DNA of 28,726 nucleotides from a virus, in the IMG/VR virus record IMGVR_UViG_3300033156_000660, positions 1 through 28,726 of that record; one strand, written 5' to 3'. Below the pieces are notes generated by a model. That model ran no database searches. It saw only the letters and a program-made list of their open reading frames with translations, and was not told the DNA's origin. Shown here in pieces: positions 2,228 to 20,994 of this stretch. A program made the position numbers and the translations under genes. Each line of letters begins with the position of its first letter. Position 1 is the stretch's first letter.

Positions 2228-2303
2228 TTTGCTTCGTCTCCTTTCCGACTCTGTGTTTCTCATCCGGGGCTTGTCACCCGGCAATGGCCCATTAGGAAAG
2301 GAG
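2228..2303 (-). promoter_or_regulatory. Repeated structured leader, copy 3
   Basis: This copy of a 73-76 base leader lies directly upstream of the gene starting at 2227. In the leftward mRNA its 5' part, CUCCUUUCC (complement of 2295-2303), is perfectly complementary to the ribosome binding region GGAAAGGAG (complement of 2238-2246). Between them lies a small hairpin with arms at 2277-2281 and 2264-2268 (CCGGG/CCCGG) and an 8-base loop. The same 5' arm can instead pair with sequence further upstream (arms 2304-2310 and 2316-2322, extendable). That upstream arm overlaps the end of the previous gene. Two mutually exclusive folds are therefore possible, consistent with translational control. The function is inferred. 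Confidence 0.55.
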
Positions 2304-2311
2304 GTGCGGCG

Positions 2312-2731
2312 CTATGCCGTACTTCCTTTCAGGTTGTCAAACCGTGCTGCAACTCGCGGATAGAGGTCCTGGATAATCGTCCGTAGGAAGGTCGCCGGAA
2401 TGCTGAGCTCGTTGGCAGCACGATCGATCTCTTCCCAGGAGCGACACTTGTCGCCCCAAGTGCCCCGCCGCGGGTCCAACATCTGAATGCTATGCTGTGG
2501 GTCCAACATCCAAACGCCACGAACCTTGGGGGCCAGGACCAGACGGTAAGTGGTCCAATTCCACTTGTCCAGCCCCTCATGTTGCCTCTCGGCTATGGTG
2601 CACCAGTTGTCAACATCTTCCCCATAGAAGCGCATCCATTCCTCCTGATCCTCACGAAACAGGACCAGATATGGATAACGACCACCAGGGAGACGTCCCT
2701 CACGGTAGACGATCTTGTTCAGGCGGTTCAT
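2312..2731 (-). CDS. Hypothetical protein
   Basis: The protein has 139 residues from ATG 2731, with GGAAGGAGATCAAG just upstream. It is rich in Trp and Arg and contains EEWMRFYGEDVDNW, repeated MLDP motifs (VWMLDPQHSIQMLDPRRG, residues about 73-90) and a helical C-terminus. I recognise no domain. It is preceded by leader copy 2. Its own 3' end (GGAAGTACGGC) forms one arm of the alternative hairpin of leader copy 3. Confidence 0.7.
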   Translation of the reverse strand: MNRLNKIVYREGRLPGGRYPYLVLFREDQEEWMRFYGEDVDNWCTIAERQHEGLDKWNWTTYRLVLAPKVRGVWMLDPQHSIQMLDPRRGTWGDKCRSWEEIDRAANELSIPATFLRTIIQDLYPRVAARFDNLKGSTA

Positions 2732-2806
2732 CTTGATCTCCTTCCCGGCTCTGCATTTCCCATCCGAGACTTGCCACTCGGCAACGGTTGCATTAGGAAA
2801 GGGAGA
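2732..2806 (-). promoter_or_regulatory. Repeated structured leader, copy 2
   Basis: This is the second leader copy, upstream of the gene starting at 2731. The central hairpin arms are CCGAG/CTCGG (2777-2781 and 2764-2768) around an 8-base loop. The mRNA segment UCUCCCUUUCC (complement of 2796-2806) can pair with the ribosome binding region GGGAAGGAGA, with one G-U pair and one bulged C. An upstream alternative hairpin has arms at 2804-2811 and 2827-2834 (AGAGGCAC and its complement). Conserved blocks shared with the other copies include TAATG and CAGAGCC before the binding site. Confidence 0.55.
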
Positions 2807-2853
2807 GGCACGGCATTATTGTTCCAGTGCCTCTTCCAATCAGATCCAACTGC

Positions 2854-3207
2854 TCACTTCTTGGCGTTGAATTTCTTGGCTTCTTCAACCACGGTCTCCC
2901 ACGTAACCTCCGTAGGAGCCTCGGTACTAGGGATGCCTTGCAGCTGGCACAGGCAGGACTTGAGGGCAGCATACTTTGCTATCAGGTTATCGATTGTCGC
3001 CCCGCGCCCCTGAACGACTCCCAGCTCGTTGGGTACGTACGCGTCCAGGTTCCGAAGACGATTGGCTTCCTGACTTAGAGTCTCTGCCAAGTCGTACAAG
3101 ACGTTAATGAGTGTTTCACGCGTAGCAGCGATCTCGTTTGAGATGTTGTACTGTACCTGCAGCATCTGGCTTTGGGTGGTATGCCAGAGGGGTTGGTCCT
3201 TGTTCAT
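2854..3207 (-). CDS. Hypothetical helical protein
   Basis: The protein has 117 residues from ATG 3207, with AAAGGAGATCAAG upstream. An extension to 3267 would translate the leader repeat and is rejected. It begins MNKDQPLWHTTQSQMLQVQY and is mainly helical with heptad-like spacing (ETLINVLYDLAETLSQEANR, residues about 31-50), so a small coiled coil is likely. The end is lysine-rich. I do not recognise the family. It is the first gene downstream of the structured non-coding block and carries leader copy 1. Confidence 0.7.
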   Translation of the reverse strand: MNKDQPLWHTTQSQMLQVQYNISNEIAATRETLINVLYDLAETLSQEANRLRNLDAYVPNELGVVQGRGATIDNLIAKYAALKSCLCQLQGIPSTEAPTEVTWETVVEEAKKFNAKK

Positions 3208-3280
3208 CTTGATCTCCTTTCTGGCTCTGTGTTTCTCACTCGAGGCTTGCCACTCGACGACGGCCACATTAGGAAAGGAG
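3208..3280 (-). promoter_or_regulatory. Repeated structured leader, copy 1
   Basis: This is the first leader copy met by leftward transcription. The central hairpin arms are TCGAG/CTCGA (3253-3257 and 3240-3244) with an 8-base loop. Compared with the other copies the outer pair is T-A instead of C-G, which keeps pairing. CUCCUUUC (complement of 3273-3280) is complementary to GAAAGGAG (complement of 3214-3221), which contains the ribosome binding site of the gene at 3207. A competing upstream hairpin has arms at 3277-3282 and 3291-3296 (GGAGGC/GCCTCC). Confidence 0.55.
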
Positions 3281-3803
3281 GCAACTTCCTGCCTCCTCGC
3301 CGTAGGTCAGTATGATAGCGAATTCCGTGCAGCTTTGGCCGGTCCTTCGCTTTGGCCATACGGGTCCTGCCTACTCGCTATCTAGGATAACTCAGGGGAC
3401 GATGCCGACCGGGCTGGGTACCGGTGGTGTGCCGTCTCTCAGCAGGTCGCTCCCGTATGGGAGCTTCTCCGGCTCTCGCCTTACGGTTCGGCGGAAGGCC
3501 ACAACCTTCCGGCGGGCTTGGAGGCGGACGCGCCTCTTACTCCCCGACTCCCCGGGCGCTTAGTTCCGGCTCCTTCTCTCGCGGCGCCTACGATCACCGT
3601 ACCGCAACGGCTTTGGGCGGACCCGCCGGTCTTGCCGGCCATCGTCTTTCAAACCCGGTTGCCGATATTCGCGCTCACCGTCTGGGCAGCCTGACTGAGT
3701 TCCAGCCGGATATGCTGATGTCAAAGACCACTGGAGGCCCTGCAGGAGAGGAGGACCGCTCTTGAAGCGCCTCCTTGTCCTTCCTGACCTCCTGTCCTAC
3801 CAT
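3281..3803 (-). ncRNA. Candidate large structured RNA (GC-rich non-coding block)
   Basis: No convincing gene lies here. The block is more GC-rich than its surroundings and full of local inverted repeats: 3314-3321 with 3375-3382 (8 bp), 3449-3454 with 3459-3464, 3493-3498 with 3505-3510, 3521-3526 with 3531-3536, 3625-3629 with 3635-3639, and 3750-3754 with 3770-3774 with a nested 4 bp stem. Phages are known to carry large ornate RNAs such as GOLLD and ROOL, and this has that general character. I cannot match it to any family. The leftward strand is preferred because a TATAAT element lies just upstream and both flanking genes are leftward. Confidence 0.35.
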
Positions 3804-3809
3804 GCTTCT

Positions 3810-3815
3810 ATTATA
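3810..3815 (-). promoter_or_regulatory. Possible -10 element for the structured RNA or left-end genes
   Basis: TATAAT lies on the leftward strand inside the palindrome TATTATATAATA (3809-3820), in an AT-rich patch. A transcript would begin near 3803, at the edge of the GC-rich block. No good -35 hexamer is seen at 16-18 bases, so an activator or a phage-specific sigma would be needed. The palindrome also gives TATAAT on the other strand. Confidence 0.35.
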
Positions 3816-4121
3816 TAATACCCTGATTAACTTTTTCTCACCGATTTACTCGGTTGATAATAAAGGAGTTAGCCATCCTCCGTACCCGCCCATCGTGGCG
3901 TCAGCTCGCCCAAACAGCCCTATAACTCGTTGAAAACAAACATATTTATACACCCTCCAGGAAAACCCCGTAGCCGTCTGCATGGGAGAGTGGAGAACTT
4001 CCGGCACCTTGGCCCTCCAGGAGCCCGGTTCTAGGCGCTTATCTCCGCCTGAACGCCCGTTCCATGCGCGCCCGGTCTCTTTATGCCTGCGGGGGAGCTT
4101 GGGCGACTCTTAGCGGAGAAA
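3816..4121. other. Intergenic region with no gene recognised
   Basis: About 300 bases follow the QueC stop. They hold a short hairpin (ACCGA/TCGGT near 3840-3855), an AT-rich stretch around 3927-3952 and GC-rich sequence near 4020-4100. I find only short, poorly supported frames, no tRNA and no clear terminator. Confidence 0.4.
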
Positions 4122-5108
4122 TTACGCATCGGGTGCCCAGTAGATGAGCTCCTGTGGGGGCGTACGACCCTTCCGTCGTTCTCGCGCAACGGCTTCACGG
4201 AAGACCTCGGTTGTGTGGGGAGGCACCTCAAAACGATTGACCCACTGAACGTACTGACCTAGATGCATGTAGGCCAAGGCGAGTTTGGCACATGCGTAGC
4301 AGTTGCCACATTGCCGGCGATCTCTCGAGTAGCAGGTCGTGGTCTTGAGGAGGACCTGTTGCGCATCGTCGCAGTTTTCCAGGAACCATCGCATGGTGTC
4401 GGCTTTCGTCAGATGCTGAAACGGCGACTCGACACGCATGGGGCGCTTGTAGGCTTGTGAAAGCAGTTCGCTCATCCACCAGAAGAATTTACGACACTTA
4501 TCCAAGGCGGCACCTGGACCATCATCAACCTTACGGTAGTTTGCGATGATCCAGATTGTGTCGCCATAGCGTGCCGCCAGAGAAGCCAAGAAGGCATTGC
4601 GCGCCGGAACAATGTATCCTTCCGGAAGACGTTCATTCGGACGAACCAACGGTTTGGTCAGCTCCAGTTCTACCTGCGTACCCGTATGACGTACAAGGTA
4701 GTCTTGCAGCGATTTTACAACAGCTACCTCCTTCTCTGAACACCACCCATAGTTCACCGTAACGGTAACAAGGTTGTGGGGCATGTATTGCAGTTTGCGA
4801 AGTGCCCAGGCCAGCGCAATGGTAGAATCGACGCCGCCACTGTAGCAGACGGCTACACGGCCACCAGGTGGCGCCGTGATGCCTGACCAACGCTCCTGCA
4901 TGGGTATGTCCTGCGAGGAACCTGGTTCTAGTCTGACGTTTCTACCAAGTTGCCATTGAGCAAATGCTTCTACTTCCTTGTACAGCTCCTTAGGACAATC
5001 TGGCGCAACGAATGCCTCGTCTCCTGTAATCCCGGCCCGAACAACGTTGTAGAACGTCTCGGCAAGTTTAGGCTTTCGACAAGGAGCACTAGGACCTTCC
5101 TGCCACAT
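4122..5108 (-). CDS. queC: QueC-like 7-cyano-7-deazaguanine synthase
   Basis: QueC converts 7-carboxy-7-deazaguanine to preQ0 using ATP and ammonia. The 328-residue protein starts at ATG 5108, which has AAAGGAGGT upstream. It has the PP-loop SGGVDS at residues 90-95, a PARN motif at 168-171 and four C-terminal cysteines (259, 267, 270, 273; C-x7-C-x2-C-x2-C) matching the zinc site of QueC. It is about 100 residues longer than typical QueC, mainly through an N-terminal extension of about 85 residues of unknown role. A FolE and a DpdA-like enzyme lie on the other arm, which fits a DNA 7-deazaguanine pathway. Its start overlaps the HAD gene by 20 bases. Another PP-loop ATPase is possible, but the cysteine pattern argues for QueC. 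Confidence 0.8.
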   Translation of the reverse strand: MWQEGPSAPCRKPKLAETFYNVVRAGITGDEAFVAPDCPKELYKEVEAFAQWQLGRNVRLEPGSSQDIPMQERWSGITAPPGGRVAVCYSGGVDSTIALAWALRKLQYMPHNLVTVTVNYGWCSEKEVAVVKSLQDYLVRHTGTQVELELTKPLVRPNERLPEGYIVPARNAFLASLAARYGDTIWIIANYRKVDDGPGAALDKCRKFFWWMSELLSQAYKRPMRVESPFQHLTKADTMRWFLENCDDAQQVLLKTTTCYSRDRRQCGNCYACAKLALAYMHLGQYVQWVNRFEVPPHTTEVFREAVARERRKGRTPPQELIYWAPDA

Positions 5109-5574
5109 GTTGTGACCTCCTTTGAACGGTAATTCTCTCGCACCCGGATCGGTTACATAGGTAGATTTCCGTATCCGGTCTGATGGCATGATACGCTTCA
5201 AGGTATCTTTCCTGATCGTCGTAAGCCAGAACCTTCTTCCATGTACGTATCCCCAGCAGGATGTTGAATACTTGTTGCTTAAAGGCCGTACTCTTCTCGT
5301 AAGCAATTTGATCAGGACGCATCAACAACCATTGCACCCAATCCAACCCGTGCTTCTGCATCCAGCGTTGCGTGACGGCGCGTAAGCTTTCTACCCGTGC
5401 TGTCAACACTGCAACCTGATAGTCCTTGTTGCGTTGCCGTTGTAGACGTTCTAAGGCATGTGCTATGGGAAGGTCCTTCAACAATGCTTCTCCGTTGATT
5501 GGGAAATCCGGTTCCGTGCGTCGGTGATCATTATCGACTAAGCAGCCATCTAAATCCCAGCAGCTTAATATCAT
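5089..5574 (-). CDS. HAD-family phosphatase
   Basis: The 161-residue protein begins MILSCWDLDGCLVDND. The DxD motif (D7, D9) supplies the nucleophile and acid of HAD phosphatases. AVLTAR (motif II, about residues 54-59), later lysines and AYDDQERY (motif IV, near residue 117) complete the fold. The compact form with an LTAR motif resembles the 3'-phosphatase domain of phage polynucleotide kinase and small phage nucleotide phosphatases. DNA-end or nucleotide dephosphorylation is therefore plausible but unproven. It starts in an ATGA overlap with the nuclease gene upstream, which suggests co-translation with the repair cluster. Confidence 0.72.
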   Translation of the reverse strand: MILSCWDLDGCLVDNDHRRTEPDFPINGEALLKDLPIAHALERLQRQRNKDYQVAVLTARVESLRAVTQRWMQKHGLDWVQWLLMRPDQIAYEKSTAFKQQVFNILLGIRTWKKVLAYDDQERYLEAYHAIRPDTEIYLCNRSGCERITVQRRSQHVAGRS

Positions 5575-6038
5575 TCTACTGATTTGCTCCTAGCTAGGAA
5601 ATCCTCGAAGATCATCATGACCAGCGCTTTACCGCGCCAGTAGAACTGTAGATGCTCTAACGTATTGTGTAACCGGAACCCGTGGATCTGTGTCTTGGGA
5701 ACTACTACGTAGGTTGTTGTGTAGTTGCCCCGCAGCACAAGCAACGGCGTACGTTGCTCGATCTTTGCTTCCTCGAATGTCTGTTCCAGCCACTGGTTCA
5801 TTAGTTTGCTCATGGGTAACACATGCGCTAAGGTCCACGCCTTCGAGTGTTTGCACTCGACGAGGTAAGGAAACCTTCTGCGTAGGGCCTCCCCCATGAC
5901 GATATCTCCCTTCTCGTGATGGCCACCACTCAAAGGTGTCCGGTAACAATCTTTCGCTCCCGCTGAAAATGTCTTACGGATCATGGAAGCTACTTTGCGT
6001 TCGAAAGAGCTACCTTTTTGTTTTGAGTACCTTCCCAA
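5571..6038 (-). CDS. PD-(D/E)xK nuclease, Holliday-junction-resolvase-like
   Basis: The 155-residue protein starts at TTG 6038, with GGGAGGTG upstream inside the end of the SbcDC gene. Key residues are E13 in KGSSFERKV, D45 in GDIV, and E61 and K63 in VECK. This is the E...D...ExK pattern of PD-(D/E)xK nucleases. The N-terminal FERKV helix and the GDI/ECK spacing resemble archaeal Hjc and phage resolvases. Placed directly after the SbcDC fusion and with RecA and UvsW in the same arm, it probably resolves or trims recombination intermediates. The exact substrate cannot be read from the sequence. Confidence 0.68.
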   Translation of the reverse strand: MGRYSKQKGSSFERKVASMIRKTFSAGAKDCYRTPLSGGHHEKGDIVMGEALRRRFPYLVECKHSKAWTLAHVLPMSKLMNQWLEQTFEEAKIEQRTPLLVLRGNYTTTYVVVPKTQIHGFRLHNTLEHLQFYWRGKALVMMIFEDFLARSKSVE

Positions 6039-6040
6039 TG

Positions 6041-8782
6041 TTACACCTCCCGCAAAGTAGAAACTCCATTATGCTTGACTACTTCGTAACAACGGTCTGG
6101 CTCCAGTCCAGTGGCAATGTAAGGATTATGTGTAGTGACAACTACTCTGTCAAACCGTTTTACCACTTGTGGCAACGCAGCTGCAAAGAGTTGGGCATTG
6201 ACGCTATCCAAGCCGTCGCCGGGCTCATCGAGTATTAGCAAGTTGAAGCGCGTCAACACATCCCGTACGGCAAAGCCGGTGATCAGGCTAGCCATACGAA
6301 GTTCGCCTTCTGACTGTCCCTTCAAGCTAGCTGCTCCATGAGCGTTATGGACCTCCACATCGAGTTGCCCATCTTCAGTAATTGCAAAATCTACCTGAAT
6401 CTCACCTTCCGTAAACATGCTCGAGTAGAAAGCAGCCGCCGCATTAAGCTTAGGGCAGGTGTTAGTCATAAGGAAAGCCGGGATGCCTGTACGTGCCAGA
6501 ACTTTCACGGCCAACTTTTGCACTTCGAGCTGCATCTCCAACTTGCGTCGCTCCTCTTTCAAACGCTTTTGTTCTCGTCGCACGTCTTCCAGAGCTTTCT
6601 CATGAGATTGTCGTACTCGTACGATACTTTCATACATTTCTATCTCGTCGACAGTACGTCCCAGTTCGCTCAGCAACCGTTCAAGGGATTGGGAAGCCTG
6701 CTTACGCTGTTCAGCCTTCTCTTGTAAGACGTCCGCCAACTTTATAGCACGCAGGTCCAAGTGCTCAACCTGTGCGGCCAGGTACTTCCGTCGTTGTTCG
6801 AGACGGTCAATATCGTTAATCAGTTTTTGTTTGCAGGTCTGCACGAATGTTTTATCCACCGGCTGGTGACAAGTCGGGCAGCGATCTTTCAGTCCCTCAA
6901 GTTGTCTTAAATCGCGTCGTAGGGCGTAGAGTCGTTGTTCGATATTCGATAACTCGGCTTGCAGACGAGTATGTAAAGAGGTAAAAACTCCATGGAGTGC
7001 TTCCAGTTCAACATGATCAGAGAAATACCTTAACGTATAGTACTGAGCCAGAAGATTTCCTATCTGTCGTTGGTAGCTCCGCTCAGCTCGCACGAGTTGT
7101 TTGTTGCGCTGCGGAAGCTGCCGTAGAGATTCTTTGTGCGTCTTTAACAACTTGTTAGACTCGGCAAGCGAATGCTCGATAGCATCAAGTTGCTTTTGTG
7201 TGTCAGTAAGGCGTGCACGCGCTTCTACTACGGCTTCCTCAAAGCGATGAAGACCTAAAAACTGCGAGAGCAGGTCTTTACGTTGTTTTTCCGTTCCGGA
7301 TAACAATGTGTTGACTTCACGCTGATCGATGTAAAGGGAGTTCAACAGTGCGTCCAACGAAAGTCCTGTCAATTGTGCCAGTGCCTCTTGTGCGGATCTC
7401 GCGTTCCCGGGAAGCACGTTCTTCCCATCAACTATTGCCCGCAGGCCGACGGGCTTACGACTCCTGATGACTTCTATGGGTTTGTCATCTACCTTGATTT
7501 GCAATGATATCGTGCTAGCCCCGCGTGCTCCGTTTCTACGCCACTCATCATGGCTTTGGCCCTTTGAGTTGGCGCCAAACAATGCAAGGGCTGGAAGGCT
7601 GAGCAGATTTGTTTTGCCGGAACCATTACTACGATTCTTCCAGTCCAAACTTCTGCCAGTAATGAGCGTAAGCCCGGGCTTGTAAGTAAACTCTACTTTC
7701 TCGTAGGAAAGTACGTTGGTAGCTTTTACGAATTCGAAGCTTATGGGTTTCAATGCGCGGATGGGTTGCTGATCGAGTAGTTCAGTTAGGTAATCAATAA
7801 GTGCGTTTCGTTGCTTTGGCTGTTTCGAGAAGAACTGTTGGTGTGCTACGTATTCAGTGATTAAGTCTCTGTCGCTTTCCGGCGAGCCTCGCAACGGCAC
7901 ATGAATCTGCTCACCAGGTCGTTCAAACACTAGGTGTACTTGTGCTGGCGCGTACTCCTTACTGACTTTCTTACGAACCGTCTCTGCTCTTCGTAACAGA
8001 TCTTTGTGTTGGGTATAAGGAACTTTGATGCGTACTACATCCTGCGCACTAAGTTTGCGCTTAACGTAGCCTGGAGCAGTGGGGTCGACGTAGTTGCGAA
8101 TATGTAGTTGTTGCTCCGTTACGGTATCCTGATCTAGGTCAAGTATCAGAAAGCGTTTCGTTTGATTGACTTCGCCCCAGTCAATAGCAAATGGGCTTCC
8201 TACATACTGGATATTTGGTGCGATGAACTGCGGCTGATGAATATGCCCACCAAAGCATTTACGAAAACGCGTTGGTCGTAAGACGGCCTTCGGCAAACCC
8301 TCATGGGACTCAGAGTAGACATTGTAGTGGGCTCCTCGAACTTCGAAGTGAAAGAATAGATAATCTCCTTTGGCTTTTCGTACGGCACGTTCCAGGTTGC
8401 TCTGGTCTCGCAGAAACGGTACCATGGCTAAAAGCGCCCCGTTTTCAGTCGTCAATGTAACCGGTTCGGAAACCACAAGTGCACCGGTGGCTTCCACCAC
8501 CGGCTGACAAGAGGGCAGATCATCATCGACTCCCATACGATCGTGATTACCTAAGAGCAGTACAAACGGCACCTTCCGTACAATCGCCTTCACGCTCTCT
8601 ACCAGGAAGTTGGTAATGCGTTGGTCAACCGGGTTCCAAGGTTGCTTGATGTCTCCCAAGTGTATTACCATGCCAATATCTCGATCGTTCTGTAGTACGG
8701 AAATCACGTTCTCGACTACCAGATGACACAGATCAAGATTCTGCGGGGAAGCATGCCAGTCACTCGTTAACAGGATCTTCAT
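6041..8782 (-). CDS. SbcD-SbcC (Mre11-Rad50 / gp47-gp46) fusion protein
   Basis: One 913-residue chain carries both halves of the DNA-end processing nuclease. Residues 1 to about 340 are the Mre11/SbcD phosphoesterase, with SDWH (D8, H10), LGD (D44), GNHD (79-81), H145 and GGHIH (H180, H182). From about 345 comes a Rad50/SbcC ATPase: Walker A NGSGKT (386-391), a first coiled-coil arm of about 115 residues, a zinc hook CPTC (635-638), a second arm, the signature region KGQSEGE (821-827), Walker B LLILDEP (848-854) and an H-loop TTH (883-885). In T4 and bacteria the two are separate adjacent genes. All key residues are intact, so it should be active. Its ATG overlaps the clamp loader stop by four bases. 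Confidence 0.93.
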   Translation of the reverse strand: MKILLTSDWHASPQNLDLCHLVVENVISVLQNDRDIGMVIHLGDIKQPWNPVDQRITNFLVESVKAIVRKVPFVLLLGNHDRMGVDDDLPSCQPVVEATGALVVSEPVTLTTENGALLAMVPFLRDQSNLERAVRKAKGDYLFFHFEVRGAHYNVYSESHEGLPKAVLRPTRFRKCFGGHIHQPQFIAPNIQYVGSPFAIDWGEVNQTKRFLILDLDQDTVTEQQLHIRNYVDPTAPGYVKRKLSAQDVVRIKVPYTQHKDLLRRAETVRKKVSKEYAPAQVHLVFERPGEQIHVPLRGSPESDRDLITEYVAHQQFFSKQPKQRNALIDYLTELLDQQPIRALKPISFEFVKATNVLSYEKVEFTYKPGLTLITGRSLDWKNRSNGSGKTNLLSLPALALFGANSKGQSHDEWRRNGARGASTISLQIKVDDKPIEVIRSRKPVGLRAIVDGKNVLPGNARSAQEALAQLTGLSLDALLNSLYIDQREVNTLLSGTEKQRKDLLSQFLGLHRFEEAVVEARARLTDTQKQLDAIEHSLAESNKLLKTHKESLRQLPQRNKQLVRAERSYQRQIGNLLAQYYTLRYFSDHVELEALHGVFTSLHTRLQAELSNIEQRLYALRRDLRQLEGLKDRCPTCHQPVDKTFVQTCKQKLINDIDRLEQRRKYLAAQVEHLDLRAIKLADVLQEKAEQRKQASQSLERLLSELGRTVDEIEMYESIVRVRQSHEKALEDVRREQKRLKEERRKLEMQLEVQKLAVKVLARTGIPAFLMTNTCPKLNAAAAFYSSMFTEGEIQVDFAITEDGQLDVEVHNAHGAASLKGQSEGELRMASLITGFAVRDVLTRFNLLILDEPGDGLDSVNAQLFAAALPQVVKRFDRVVVTTHNPYIATGLEPDRCYEVVKHNGVSTLREV

Positions 8783-9786
8783 TTTCTATCTCCGAACTGC
8801 ATGCAAACGAGATACAGCGTTCCGGTCAGCCAGTACATAAGATTTTGATCTTCCAACGGCGCTGGCGCCATGAGCATTTGCAGTGAGGTAGCCAACGTTC
8901 TCCGACGAGTAGCATGTACTTCATGAAGCAATGCTTTTCGCAACCATCCAGCCACTGCTGCGCGTATCAGCCGAGAGTCTTCAGCGCCAACGTTCTCTAA
9001 GATTTTGCGTAATGTCTTCCAATCCCCACGTGTTACAGCTTTACAGATGGCCAGGGCAGACTGAGATTCTTCCGATAGTCCCCATACAGCTTCCTTGATG
9101 CTGGCTCCCGCAGCTAGTTTGTCCAATACCATCAAGAGAATTCCCGGAGCATGAATGCCGGCCATATGAATGGCATCAAAGAGTTCCGGTAGGTCAACCT
9201 TCAGGCGCAGTTGACGAGCTATCTTACGAACGAACGCTTCTGTGTTACTGAGTGATAATGGTCGGAGAGCATAGGTCATGCATCGTCGTCGTAGCGTAAG
9301 CAGGAGCTTGTTCGGTTCTGTTGTACAGATGATCCAAACGGTCGATGAGTTTGTTTGCTCCAAAGGCTTTAACAACAAGTTCTGTCCGGCAGTAGTAACT
9401 CGCTGTGCCTCGTCAAGGATAAACACTCTACGCTTCGACGGCAGTTGCGGTCGATATCGCGCCTGTTCTACGATTTCTCCAATCTGTTCCACCTTGTTCA
9501 CTTCAGAGGCGTTAATTTCGTGGATGGCAAATTCAGACCATCGAGACCAACATTCGTCACAAGGCTCTCCCCATGTTTCCTGATGTGAGCACTGATAAGA
9601 AAGCGCAACGATGCGAGCCATGGTGGTCTTACCACATCCAGAAGGTCCGTGGAACAGCCAAGCATGTGGTTCACGTTCGACAATCTGTTTACGGATAGTA
9701 CGGATTAGGTTGCGCTGTCCGATGACTTCCGAAAAGCGTTTGGGTCGTAATTTGAGTGCGAGTATTGCCGATTCTGGTATTTGCAT
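8779..9786 (-). CDS. DnaX-like clamp loader AAA+ subunit
   Basis: The 335-residue protein opens LRPKRFSEVIGQ, the usual start of clamp loader ATPases. Walker A GPSGCGKTT is at 47-55, Walker B VFILDEAQ at 121-128, sensor 1 CTTEPNK at about 154-160 and an arginine-finger-like RRRC at 166-169, in place of the usual SRC. Residues C66, H68, C76 and C79 form a small zinc site in the position of the DnaX four-cysteine module. The C-terminal 150 residues resemble a collar domain. It would load the probable sliding clamp encoded at 20994. Its start overlaps the RecA-like stop as TAATG. Confidence 0.85.
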   Translation of the reverse strand: MQIPESAILALKLRPKRFSEVIGQRNLIRTIRKQIVEREPHAWLFHGPSGCGKTTMARIVALSYQCSHQETWGEPCDECWSRWSEFAIHEINASEVNKVEQIGEIVEQARYRPQLPSKRRVFILDEAQRVTTAGQNLLLKPLEQTNSSTVWIICTTEPNKLLLTLRRRCMTYALRPLSLSNTEAFVRKIARQLRLKVDLPELFDAIHMAGIHAPGILLMVLDKLAAGASIKEAVWGLSEESQSALAICKAVTRGDWKTLRKILENVGAEDSRLIRAAVAGWLRKALLHEVHATRRRTLATSLQMLMAPAPLEDQNLMYWLTGTLYLVCMQFGDRK

Positions 9787-10687: not shown

Positions 10688-11845
10688 TCAACGCCGTTTG
10701 GTGCGCCGTCTTGTAGTCTTTTTCTTAGGTGCTGTTGTCTTCTTCTTGGTGGTAGTTTTGCTAGTTCTCCGTTTTCGCGAAGAGGCAGGAGTTTCTTCCT
10801 CTTCCTCTTCCTCCTCGTCTTCTTCCTCTTCCTCTTCCTCTTCCTCTTCCTCCTCGTCTTCTTCCTCTTCCTCTTCCTCTTCCTCCTCGTCTTCTTCCTC
10901 TTCCTCTTCCTCCTCGTCCTCTAACTCTTCCTCTTCCTCCTCGTCTTCGGCCTCTTCCTCTTCTTCCTCCTCGTCTTCGGCCTCTTCCTCTTCTTCCTCC
11001 TCGTCTTCTGCCTCTTCCTCGTCTTCGTCCTCTAACTCTTCCTCTTCCTCTTCTTCCTCCTCGTCTTCTGCCTCTTCCTCGTCTTCGTCCTCTAACTCTT
11101 CCTCTTCCTCTTCTTCCTCCTCGTCTTCTGCCTCTTCCTCTAACTCTTCCTCTTCGAGTGCCTCCTCGTCTTCTGGTTCTTCGTCTTCTGCAGCTTCTCT
11201 GATGTCACGACCGTAAAATGCTGCTTGTTGTACGCTCTTTGAATATTTCGGAAGCAGCTCGTCAAATGTTTTTGAAGCTGCCAAGATGCCCTTTGGTACT
11301 TTCGATGGAGCGTCGTCGGGAATAGCCGCGCTATATTCGGTATCTCGCATCTTGGTACCAGAGCGCATAATGGTAATGTTGTAGCCCTTTACCGGGTGGT
11401 CGTAGGAACGTTTGCTCGATATCAGCAACTGCAAAATGGCCAATACCAAACGCTTTGCGCTGACCCACCAAACCTTAGGTCTATCGAACTTTCCTGTCTC
11501 TGGATCTACAGATGCAACCTGAACTACAAAGGCAGGTTTGGCTTGAATCTCGTTTGCCATAAGATGCCGTCGTTGGTTTGCAGACTTGAGCAGCTCCGGT
11601 ATCTTCTTGTCACAAAGCCAACAAGAGCCCTGTCCGTCAATATCCTTACCACAGCGAACCGATATCTTGTCGGGGCCAACTCCATAGTGCATTCGAAGTT
11701 CGGCATAAGGAGGCTTATCCAGACCCTCCTTGTTAGGAAGAATCCGGAAGGTGTTGTCTCCTTCAGCAAGTTTGAATTTGTCACCCGCCTGACGGTCCTT
11801 GAGCCTCCGACGGGCTTGTGCTTTCCAATCAGCTTTCTTTGCCAT
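10688..11845 (-). CDS. gp32-like single-strand DNA binding protein with extreme acidic tail
   Basis: The N-terminal 215 residues resemble T4 gp32. A zinc site H53-x11-C65-x9-C75-x2-C78 almost matches the gp32 spacing (H-x12-C-x9-C-x2-C), and the N-terminus is basic. From about 218 to 350 the chain is almost only Glu and Asp with a few Ala and Leu. It then ends in about 35 residues rich in Lys, Arg and Thr (for example KTTTKKKTTAPKKK). T4 gp32 also has an acidic C-terminal arm that recruits partners, but a far shorter one and without a basic end. The acidic part is encoded by tandem DNA repeats. The start at ATG 11845 has AAGGAGAAC upstream. Confidence 0.82.
   Translation of the reverse strand: MAKKADWKAQARRRLKDRQAGDKFKLAEGDNTFRILPNKEGLDKPPYAELRMHYGVGPDKISVRCGKDIDGQGSCWLCDKKIPELLKSANQRRHLMANEIQAKPAFVVQVASVDPETGKFDRPKVWWVSAKRLVLAILQLLISSKRSYDHPVKGYNITIMRSGTKMRDTEYSAAIPDDAPSKVPKGILAASKTFDELLPKYSKSVQQAAFYGRDIREAAEDEEPEDEEALEEEELEEEAEDEEEEEEEEELEDEDEEEAEDEEEEEEEEELEDEDEEEAEDEEEEEEEAEDEEEEEEEAEDEEEEEELEDEEEEEEEEDEEEEEEEEEEDEEEEEEEEEEEEDEEEEEEEETPASSRKRRTSKTTTKKKTTAPKKKTTRRRTKRR
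10797..11160 (-). repeat. Tandem repeats encoding the acidic tail
   Basis: The DNA is built of TCTTCC and TCCTCG-type units. A 60-base unit at 10981-11040 is repeated exactly at 11041-11100, and its first 40 bases recur at 11101-11140. Related 30-base units lie at 10921-10980 and shorter ones at 10797-10920. In the coding frame all encode Glu, Asp and occasional Ala or Leu. Such arrays can change length by slippage or recombination. Confidence 0.92.
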
Positions 11846-19096: not shown

Positions 19097-19413
19097 GTAC
19101 GAAACCTATCTTGAGCTGCTTGTTGTGCAAAAGGCGCTACTCAGAGGAGGATGTACGGCACGGACTTTACTGGCCGCAGACCTACATCTGTTCTCGGTGC
19201 TATGGGAGGATGCAGGCAGCTCCGTATGAGGTGTCCTGTTTTGGCAAGCCCACGGAGGTCGATATGTGTACCGGGAGGAAGCGACTAGGCTATGATTCTC
19301 GGTCCCTCGAATGCAATCGTCTATGCCCGGATCGTGACATTTGTGCGTTGGTGTTTGCTGCCATAGAAGAGGAGGAAGATACCGGTGAAAGAAGTTCCAG
19401 GATGGGTAGGTAG
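19093..19413 (+). CDS. Cysteine-rich putative zinc protein
   Basis: The 106-residue protein starts in an ATGA overlap with the sigma-like gene. Cysteines at 9 and 12 (CLLC) and at 33 and 36 (CSRC) form a likely zinc finger. Further cysteines near 49, 59, 74, 78 and 84 could form a second metal site. The end is acidic (EEEEDTGE). Its last 29 bases overlap the DpdA-like gene, so it may assist or regulate DNA modification. I do not recognise the family. Confidence 0.7.
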   Translation: MSTKPILSCLLCKRRYSEEDVRHGLYWPQTYICSRCYGRMQAAPYEVSCFGKPTEVDMCTGRKRLGYDSRSLECNRLCPDRDICALVFAAIEEEEDTGERSSRMGR

Positions 19414-20410
19414 ACGTCCGGAAGATCCCTGGCCGATTATATACCACGGCACTACCATGGGGGTGAATGCAGACAATCGAACGTTCTTTGAGGTAGGGAT
19501 TCGTTACTTTTGTTTAAGCTACTATACCTACTACGACTACTACCAGCAGCACCCTACGGGCTCGCCAGACTATAACCCATGGAGAGCACATTTGGAGGCA
19601 CTTCGGAAGATTAACGCTCGTGTGATGTTGGACTCTGGTGCCTTCAGTTTTCTGGTCATGGGGTACAACAAGAAGATACCTGAGAAGGAACTTGAGCGAT
19701 TGATTGATAGCTACCTCTATGGGCCACAACTGCCTCGGCAAAAGAAGAGCGACGGCACGCATCCATTCTCGTTTGTCGACTGGCTACACCGTTGGCCTTA
19801 TCCTTTTGACTTTTACGTTACCTTTGATTATCGAGTACATGCACCTACGGTTTATCGGGTGACCAAGATGTTAAAGAAAGCCGGACTGCATCCGGTTCCT
19901 GTTTACCATGGTGACAGCTCAATCGACTGGTTGAAACGGTATATTGATGAGGGGCATAGATTGATAGGAGTATCGAAAAGATTCTTTCTCAACGGTCCTA
20001 GAGATCGCCTATGGCATTACTATGATCAAGTGTTTCGGGTGACGGAGGCAGCGGGTGTTTACTGCCATGGGTTCGCATGTACAGGTCCGGAGATGTGGGA
20101 TTACCCTTGGCACTCAGTCGATTCGACTACCTTTCAGAAAAGTGTCGGTTTGGGCACGATTTGGTATTATGTGCCGTCCGAAGGTAAGAACGGTCTACGT
20201 AAGGTTGAGGTGGCTCGTCGTAGGAGAGGAAGACTGCCAGGGGAGCTTATAGATCAACTCCGCGAGCGGGGTTTGACGTTGGGGGATGTGCAACATAAGC
20301 GTACTGCTCGCCTTGGGTTTAGTCTAAAAGCTTTGATGGCGTTTCAGGAAGATCTGAACAAGAAGAAAGGAAGGAAAGTAGCATGGAAACAAAGGAAGAC
20401 ACTGTTTTGA
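19385..20410 (+). CDS. dpdA: DpdA-like DNA guanine transglycosylase
   Basis: DpdA enzymes belong to the tRNA-guanine transglycosylase fold and swap guanine in DNA for a 7-deazaguanine. This 341-residue protein starts at GTG 19385 after GAGGAGGAAG. It has MLDSGAFSF (D83), the counterpart of the DSGG catalytic motif, and PWHSVDSTTF with D246 as the likely nucleophile. Between them a TIM-barrel pattern is visible (DFYVTFDYR, VPVYHGD, LIGVSKR, CHGFACTGP). The short length and the SVDSTTF motif are those of phage DpdA forms rather than tRNA enzymes. FolE follows with a 28-base overlap, and QueC is on the left arm, which supports the pathway. Confidence 0.8.
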   Translation: MKEVPGWVGRRPEDPWPIIYHGTTMGVNADNRTFFEVGIRYFCLSYYTYYDYYQQHPTGSPDYNPWRAHLEALRKINARVMLDSGAFSFLVMGYNKKIPEKELERLIDSYLYGPQLPRQKKSDGTHPFSFVDWLHRWPYPFDFYVTFDYRVHAPTVYRVTKMLKKAGLHPVPVYHGDSSIDWLKRYIDEGHRLIGVSKRFFLNGPRDRLWHYYDQVFRVTEAAGVYCHGFACTGPEMWDYPWHSVDSTTFQKSVGLGTIWYYVPSEGKNGLRKVEVARRRRGRLPGELIDQLRERGLTLGDVQHKRTARLGFSLKALMAFQEDLNKKKGRKVAWKQRKTLF

Positions 20411-20994
20411 GTGCGAAGACACGTGAGAAGTTGCAGGTAGGTGTTGCGGCTCTGGTAGATGAGTTACGGGGATATGTAGATCTTGACGGATCTAACTTCG
20501 ACCATACCGCCAAGCGGGTGGTACGGATGTATGAAGAGCTCTTTGAAGGAGTAAAGCAAGATCCTGCCAAATTGCTGCAAGTTCATTTCCCTGCACAGCA
20601 CTATGATGAGCTGATTACTGTATGCAATATTGATTTCGTAAGCATGTGTGCTCATCACTTGCTACCGTTCGTTGGCTATGCACATTTTGCGTATCTGCCG
20701 GATGAAGGAGTAGTCGGACTGTCTAAAATTCCCAGGATGATACGTGCTCTGGCACGACGGCCGCAGATTCAGGAGAAGCTAACGCAGGACATCGTTAACT
20801 TGTTTCAGCGTGTCGTACGCCCGCATGGTTGCGCGGTACTGGTAGATGCTTGGCATTCCTGTGTGGCAGTACGGGGAGTACGAGAACCGCGAGCTATGAT
20901 GCGCACTACGGCATTAGCAGGAAGCTTTCAACTGAATCCGTCTTTGAAGCGCGAGTTCTTCGATACGATTGCTCTGGAGGTACGGAGGTTCTGA
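20383..20994 (+). CDS. folE: GTP cyclohydrolase I
   Basis: FolE converts GTP to dihydroneopterin triphosphate, the first step of both folate and 7-deazaguanine synthesis. The 203-residue protein has SMCAHHLLPF, with zinc ligands C89 and H92; the usual Glu between Cys and His is Ala here. GLSKIPR is at 113-119, and HSCVAVRGV carries the third zinc ligand C161. ATG 20383 follows GGAAGGAAAG. Overlap with the DpdA-like gene points to a role in making the modified base. Confidence 0.9.
   Translation: METKEDTVLSAKTREKLQVGVAALVDELRGYVDLDGSNFDHTAKRVVRMYEELFEGVKQDPAKLLQVHFPAQHYDELITVCNIDFVSMCAHHLLPFVGYAHFAYLPDEGVVGLSKIPRMIRALARRPQIQEKLTQDIVNLFQRVVRPHGCAVLVDAWHSCVAVRGVREPRAMMRTTALAGSFQLNPSLKREFFDTIALEVRRF

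Follow-up and report, generated by a model that had tools for sequence, protein, structure and literature searches.

Predicted twister and hammerhead ribozymes between the genes of a phage operon carry the Shine-Dalgarno sequence of the next gene in their closing stems

Introduction

Small self-cleaving ribozymes are common in bacteria and phages, and ever since this was discovered their role there has been an open question. In 2011, clustered hammerheads flanking single prophage genes were described, for which processing of the transcript into gene-length messages was suggested, and tandem hammerheads from prophage operons proved to be active self-cleavers both in vitro and in E. coli (PMC3088659). 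A word search of the text of that study returned no mention of Shine-Dalgarno (SD) or ribosome binding site. An SD sequence has been placed inside a closing stem by engineering: passages of a report on a twister ribozyme with the SD in stem P1 give 5-fold more expression when the ribozyme is active, and describe the gain of this P1 format as only modest, for which its authors hold residual structure directly 5′ of the SD responsible (PMC5052635). In searches of an open literature library, no natural phage ribozyme was described as having an SD in its closing stem; since the library covers mostly papers outside subscription journals, this is weak evidence.

Here, a viral sequence of 28,726 nucleotides (IMG/VR record IMGVR_UViG_3300033156_000660; hereafter the window, meaning the whole stretch analysed) was examined around three repeats, which the original prediction had described as copies of a structured leader preceding different small genes.

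Three twister ribozymes before unrelated genes

The positions reported for the three repeats were confirmed; the repeats lie on the minus strand, however, and this is the strand that codes for the genes of the region. Copy c1 (2238-2303, minus strand) comprises a P1 5′ arm at 2303-2295, the L4 loop at 2276-2269, the 3′ side of pseudoknot T1 at 2248-2247 and a P1 3′ arm at 2246-2238 (GGAAAGGAG, with the SD inside), and its expected cleavage site is U2294/A2293. Copy c2 (2738-2806, minus) has its L4 loop at 2776-2769, the T1 3′ side at 2748-2747, the P1 3′ arm at 2746-2738 (GGGAAGGAG, again with the SD inside) and expected cleavage at U2795/A2794. In c3 (3214-3280, minus), the corresponding parts are the P1 5′ arm at 3280-3272, the L4 loop at 3252-3245, the T1 3′ side at 3224-3223 and the SD-containing P1 3′ arm at 3222-3214 (AGAAAGGAG), with cleavage expected at U3271/A3270.

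Each copy precedes a small minus-strand open reading frame with no assigned function: g1 (1868-2227, 119 aa) follows c1, g2 (2312-2731, 139 aa) follows c2, and g3 (2854-3207, 117 aa, start ATG at 3207) follows c3. No mutual similarity and no strong family match was detected for the three proteins, in agreement with the view that one structured RNA is repeated before unrelated genes. In a related viral contig, L003, the homologue of g1 is 77% identical and that of g3 likewise lies directly downstream of a twister; no homologue of g2 was found in this contig, and protein searches of the viral contigs for relatives of g2 and of an SbcCD-like protein returned no matches.

A conserved stretch of ~180 nt without a recognised gene lies upstream (3551-3727, minus), is 81% identical in L003, and is located between the first twister and a conserved TATAAT-like stretch (3795-3821, minus). 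No Rfam family matched this stretch, which may form a structured RNA to be released by cleavage at the first twister. Neither a promoter, in a sigma-70 scan, nor an intrinsic terminator on the minus strand was found.

A DNA pattern that followed the repeat too exactly recovered no viral contig, whereas a loose one recovered two. The repeats and their viral relatives had a core in common, UUUCCUAAUGCGGCC..GGUGGCAAGCCC..AAACGCAGAG, which led to the suspicion of a twister. All three copies contain the elements UAA, GCC, CAAGC, AAA and GAG together with two pseudoknots, as well as the sequence CCU^AAUG, in which the conserved U-A cleavage step falls in the UAA between P1 and P2. Helices P1, P2 and P4 form in every copy, and the pseudoknots L4-L1 (T1) and L4-L2 (T2) pair in all three and covary. 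The defects are small: P2 of c1 is one base short, P1 of c3 has one terminal mismatch and P1 of c2 has one bulge.

The compensatory changes extend beyond those first reported. The P4 stem does change as CCGGG/CCCGG, CCGAG/CTCGG and TCGAG/CTCGA in c1, c2 and c3, around a constant 8-base loop (UGRCAAGY), so that the two-pair covariation originally noticed is real; it is incomplete, since P2 is UGCA/UGCA in c2 and UGUG/CACA in c3, T1 is GA/UC in c1 and GG/CC in c2 and c3, and T2, for which the GC/GC pairing is an assignment of the present analysis, is GC/GC in c1 and c3 and AC/GU in c2.

A covariance model derived from 47 phage twisters, none of them from the window, matched exactly c1 (45.1 bits, E 3.6e-13), c2 (42.4 bits, E 3.2e-12) and c3 (45.0 bits, E 3.9e-13) and nothing else in the window, that is, with E 3.2e-12 or better throughout. 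The Rfam twister-P1 model (RF03160) also matched c1, L003 and a further contig, L002, although all below its cut-off (24.3 bits for c1, and 31.8 and 37.4 for the two contigs, vs 67.2), and it did not list c2 and c3. This cut-off was passed by only one of 16 scanned twister loci, and so overlooks most of a large phage family. As the window-free model finds only the copies, and as compensatory changes occur in P2, P4, T1 and T2, the assignment of the three copies to type-P1 twister ribozymes is firm at the level of sequence. The suggestion of an undescribed RNA is therefore replaced by a known class, in view of the core, the pseudoknots, the model E-values and the Rfam matches.

No riboswitch or thermometer family of Rfam matched at the three copies, and these identities were dropped, the conservation being explained by the twister core. 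The start-associated sequences of mycobacteriophages were considered and set aside, the repeat being accounted for by its catalytic core. An Rfam match to BjrC68 over c1 lay on the plus strand, opposite to the genes, with 24.2 bits against a cut-off of 39, and was taken as chance.

A hammerhead ribozyme at a further junction

RAGATH RNAs were identified because they are associated with genes that occur near twisters and hammerheads, and co-occurrence of these two classes is therefore expected. In the window, a RAGATH-1-like hammerhead with an open stem I (1664-1717, minus; 36.2 bits with RF03152) lies in the same minus-strand operon as the twisters, directly upstream of a gene for a VWA-domain protein (699-1655, minus), whose ATG at 1655 is 8 nt past the SD. 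It has the CUGANGA...GAAA core (here CUGAUGA...GAAA), the A15.1-U16.1 pair, an NUH^ cleavage site and stems I and III. The core is intact, as are stem III and stem I; the latter has 7 pairs and contains CCUCCC/GGGAGG, and cleavage is expected after C1670 (C1670/G1669). The 3′ strand of stem I, GGGAGG at 1669-1664, serves as SD for the VWA gene. A model built from nine other hammerheads from other phages, the window being excluded, matched 1662-1720 with 60 bits (E 2.3e-16); no DNA match to this hammerhead was found among named phages.

The relative L003 holds one twister and one hammerhead, and its hammerhead is placed at another gene junction than in the window, before a gene whose own SD lies further downstream. 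Hence, ribozymes have been gained, lost or moved between junctions. In addition, a truncated hammerhead remnant was observed in L003 (9568-9601, plus), consisting of the stem I 5′ strand and CUGAUGAG, without GAAAC or stem III.

The SD in the closing stem and the upstream hairpin

In all four ribozymes of the window, belonging to two classes, the closing stem (P1 or stem I) has the SD of the following gene as its 3′ strand. In the twisters, the CUCCUUUCC segment pairs with the SD region at 9/9 positions in c1, at 8/9 in c3 and with one bulge in c2. The complementarity to the ribosome binding region and the alternative pairing upstream, both part of the original prediction, are thus present, a hairpin being possible in each copy. 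Upstream of c3, the hairpin GGAGGCAGGAAGUUGCCUCC (3272-3320, minus; minimum free energy -17 to -20 kcal/mol, z -4.1), the 3′ half of which overlaps with the 5′ arm of P1, stops 1 nt short of the cleavage U. The one upstream of c2 (2796-2842, minus; GAGGCAC...GUGCCUC, z -3.5) stops 9 nt short of the respective U, and the one upstream of c1 (2296-2331, minus; z -3.8), which contains the g2 stop codon, 2 nt short of it. Since no intrinsic terminator was found on the minus strand, these hairpins are not simple terminators. They compete for the P1 5′ arm, leaving the re-association of the cleavage products at only -1.8 to -4.2 kcal/mol.

This hairpin is a property of the wider family. When the 40 nt preceding the cut were folded in 98 elements, the mean z against base shuffles was -2.5, with 73% below -1.5, while the downstream control, the 40 nt past the cut, had a mean z of -0.1; in nearly all of them the hairpin ended 0-6 nt before the cut. 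The position of the SD is less constant, as it lies within P1 in eight of the 66 twisters with a recognisable start, among them the three window copies and one in L003, and outside P1 in the other 58. Where the SD adjoins the element, P1 extends over 6.2 bp, compared with 3.4 for swapped arms.

A hammerhead pattern with GGGAGG directly after the cut, in which no start codon was required, recovered ten viral contigs, one of which (L131) looks like chance; most of the others have a start codon 6-8 nt past the SD. In L136 (320-1020, minus), three successive hammerheads each carry GUC^GGGAGG 7 nt before an ATG and have their own small open reading frame, an array that parallels the triple twister of the window. 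SD masking is therefore a recurring arrangement and a trait of this lineage; because the SD lies outside the stem in most relatives, it is neither the rule nor the general purpose of the twister.

Occurrence in other genomes and further genes of the window

A relaxed twister pattern, in which the T1 and inner P2 pairs were left free, recovered 101 distinct viral elements, of which 97 pair at T1, 97 at P2 and 96 at both, with covariation at T1 across the set. The 96 further twisters of viral contigs mostly have an upstream hairpin and usually the SD outside P1. The covariation score of the whole structure was 0.425 over 47 elements, rows preselected for paired T1 and P2, compared with 0.117 for shuffled and at most 0.09 for slid alignments. 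In bacterial genomes, the strict pattern had no matches, whereas the relaxed one yielded 49 stretches, 24 of which pass both pairing tests, mostly in Clostridia. Two human faecal phage records were also matched by a twister query. The genes that follow the twisters are diverse, including an exonuclease, FtsK-like and Mu Gam-like proteins and others without assigned function, and pistol and hammerhead II ribozymes occur near phage twisters. Tandem twisters recur in phages: four matches, two strong and two weaker, were observed at 4581-9353 (minus) of the 12.8 kb stretch L013, while L016, L017 and L031 contain two apiece.

Elsewhere in the window, a QueC-like gene (4122-5219, minus), a queuine tRNA-ribosyltransferase-like gene (19385-20410, plus) and a GTP cyclohydrolase I gene (20383-20994, plus) were observed, on account of which the phage may make 7-deazaguanine-modified DNA. 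The product of another gene (10688-11845, minus) has a very long tail rich in Glu and Asp, for which a degenerate tandem repeat codes.

Proposed mechanism and alternative explanations

Given the twister class, transcript cutting, and not only a reversible masking switch, is the natural reading of the repeats. The ribozymes would fold during transcription and cut the polycistronic RNA between the phage genes, the twisters at the U-A step of CCU^AAUG and the hammerhead after GUC. Since the closing stem consists of the SD of the downstream gene and its complementary strand, the uncut RNA would hold the SD in a helix. After the cut, the complementary strand would stay on the upstream RNA and fold into or beside the stable hairpin, which would cap its 3′ end. 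The products would then part, giving an upstream RNA with a hairpin-protected 3′ end and a downstream RNA with a 5′-OH and a free SD. That the twisters and the hammerhead cut this operon, and that the cut also strips the strand masking the next SD, is given a probability of about 0.6; the 5-fold effect of the engineered twister was counted in its favour, and the shortened P2 of c1, the low Rfam twister scores, the small share of twisters with the SD inside P1 (eight of 66), the separate SD of the hammerhead's gene in L003 and the modest gain of the engineered P1 format were counted against it. Cutting in the cell is expected from class membership, and it may raise translation or set message stability.

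A bolder version may tentatively be put forward, although the odds are rather against it, in which twister and hammerhead are interchangeable cut-to-translate punctuation and a gene stays silent until its own ribozyme removes the SD-masking strand. If so, the expression of each gene would depend on co-transcriptional self-cleavage, not on a ligand or protein. An unmasking role is weakened mainly by simple folding: in predictions without pseudoknots, the unpaired fraction of the SD changed from uncut to cut from 0.46 to 0.78 in c1, from 0.28 to 0.24 in c2 and from 0.53 to 0.53 in c3, a clear release for c1 only. This slight effect in c2 and c3 is what would be expected if the ribozymes served processing only, generating single-gene messages whose hairpin-capped 3′ and 5′-OH ends alter stability, with the SD falling in P1 merely because the gene is close. 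The 58 of 66 twisters with the SD outside P1, and the upstream hairpin that the relatives nonetheless have, point the same way, as does the operon processing proposed for clustered prophage hammerheads (PMC3088659). Mere closeness, however, accounts poorly for an SD that coincides exactly with the closing-stem strand in four of four window ribozymes of two classes, for the same arrangement in independent hammerheads of other phages, and for a P1 that is longer where it meets the SD; processing alone is thus rather unlikely.

A reversible leader of the kind originally predicted, which could be an RNA thermometer or a protein- or ligand-sensing switch and would mask the SD without cutting, would explain the SD inside P1 and its alternative upstream partner. 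It is improbable, because a plain masking stem needs neither the catalytic core nor the two pseudoknots, which are kept with compensatory changes, and because the next junction has a ribozyme of an unrelated class with an intact core. Even less credence is given to the copies being duplication leftovers that have stopped cutting: the shortened P2 of c1, the low Rfam scores and the hammerhead remnant at 9568 in L003 are what decay would leave, but the changes between copies at P2, P4, T1 and T2 compensate each other, indicating selection on the fold after duplication, and the homologous gene of L003 is still preceded by a twister that is intact.

Comparison with known systems

Ribozyme cutting coupled to SD release would make this operon a concrete and testable answer to what such ribozymes do in phages, with two unrelated classes in one transcript and a cut built to release the next SD. 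The window twisters share with RF03160 the order P1-UAA-P2-GCC-P4-CAAGC-AAA-P2-GAG-NN-P1, both pseudoknots and a cut expected at U^A; they differ in scoring under its cut-off, in lacking P3, in a P4 longer by one pair, in a long P1 made of SD and anti-SD, and in occurring three in tandem. Similarly, the hammerhead has the core and stems of RAGATH-1 (RF03152), but reaches 36.2 bits against a cut-off of 56.3, and the SD of the VWA gene makes up the 3′ strand of its stem I. The engineered twister follows the same logic, as SD and anti-SD form P1 and cleavage frees the SD, whereas it is artificial and based on env-9, and no upstream capture hairpin is reported in those passages of the paper (PMC5052635). 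As in the prophage hammerheads, several ribozymes lie between the genes of one phage transcript, presumably cutting it into gene-length messages (PMC3088659); unlike them, the window combines two ribozyme classes in one operon and places an SD in each closing stem.
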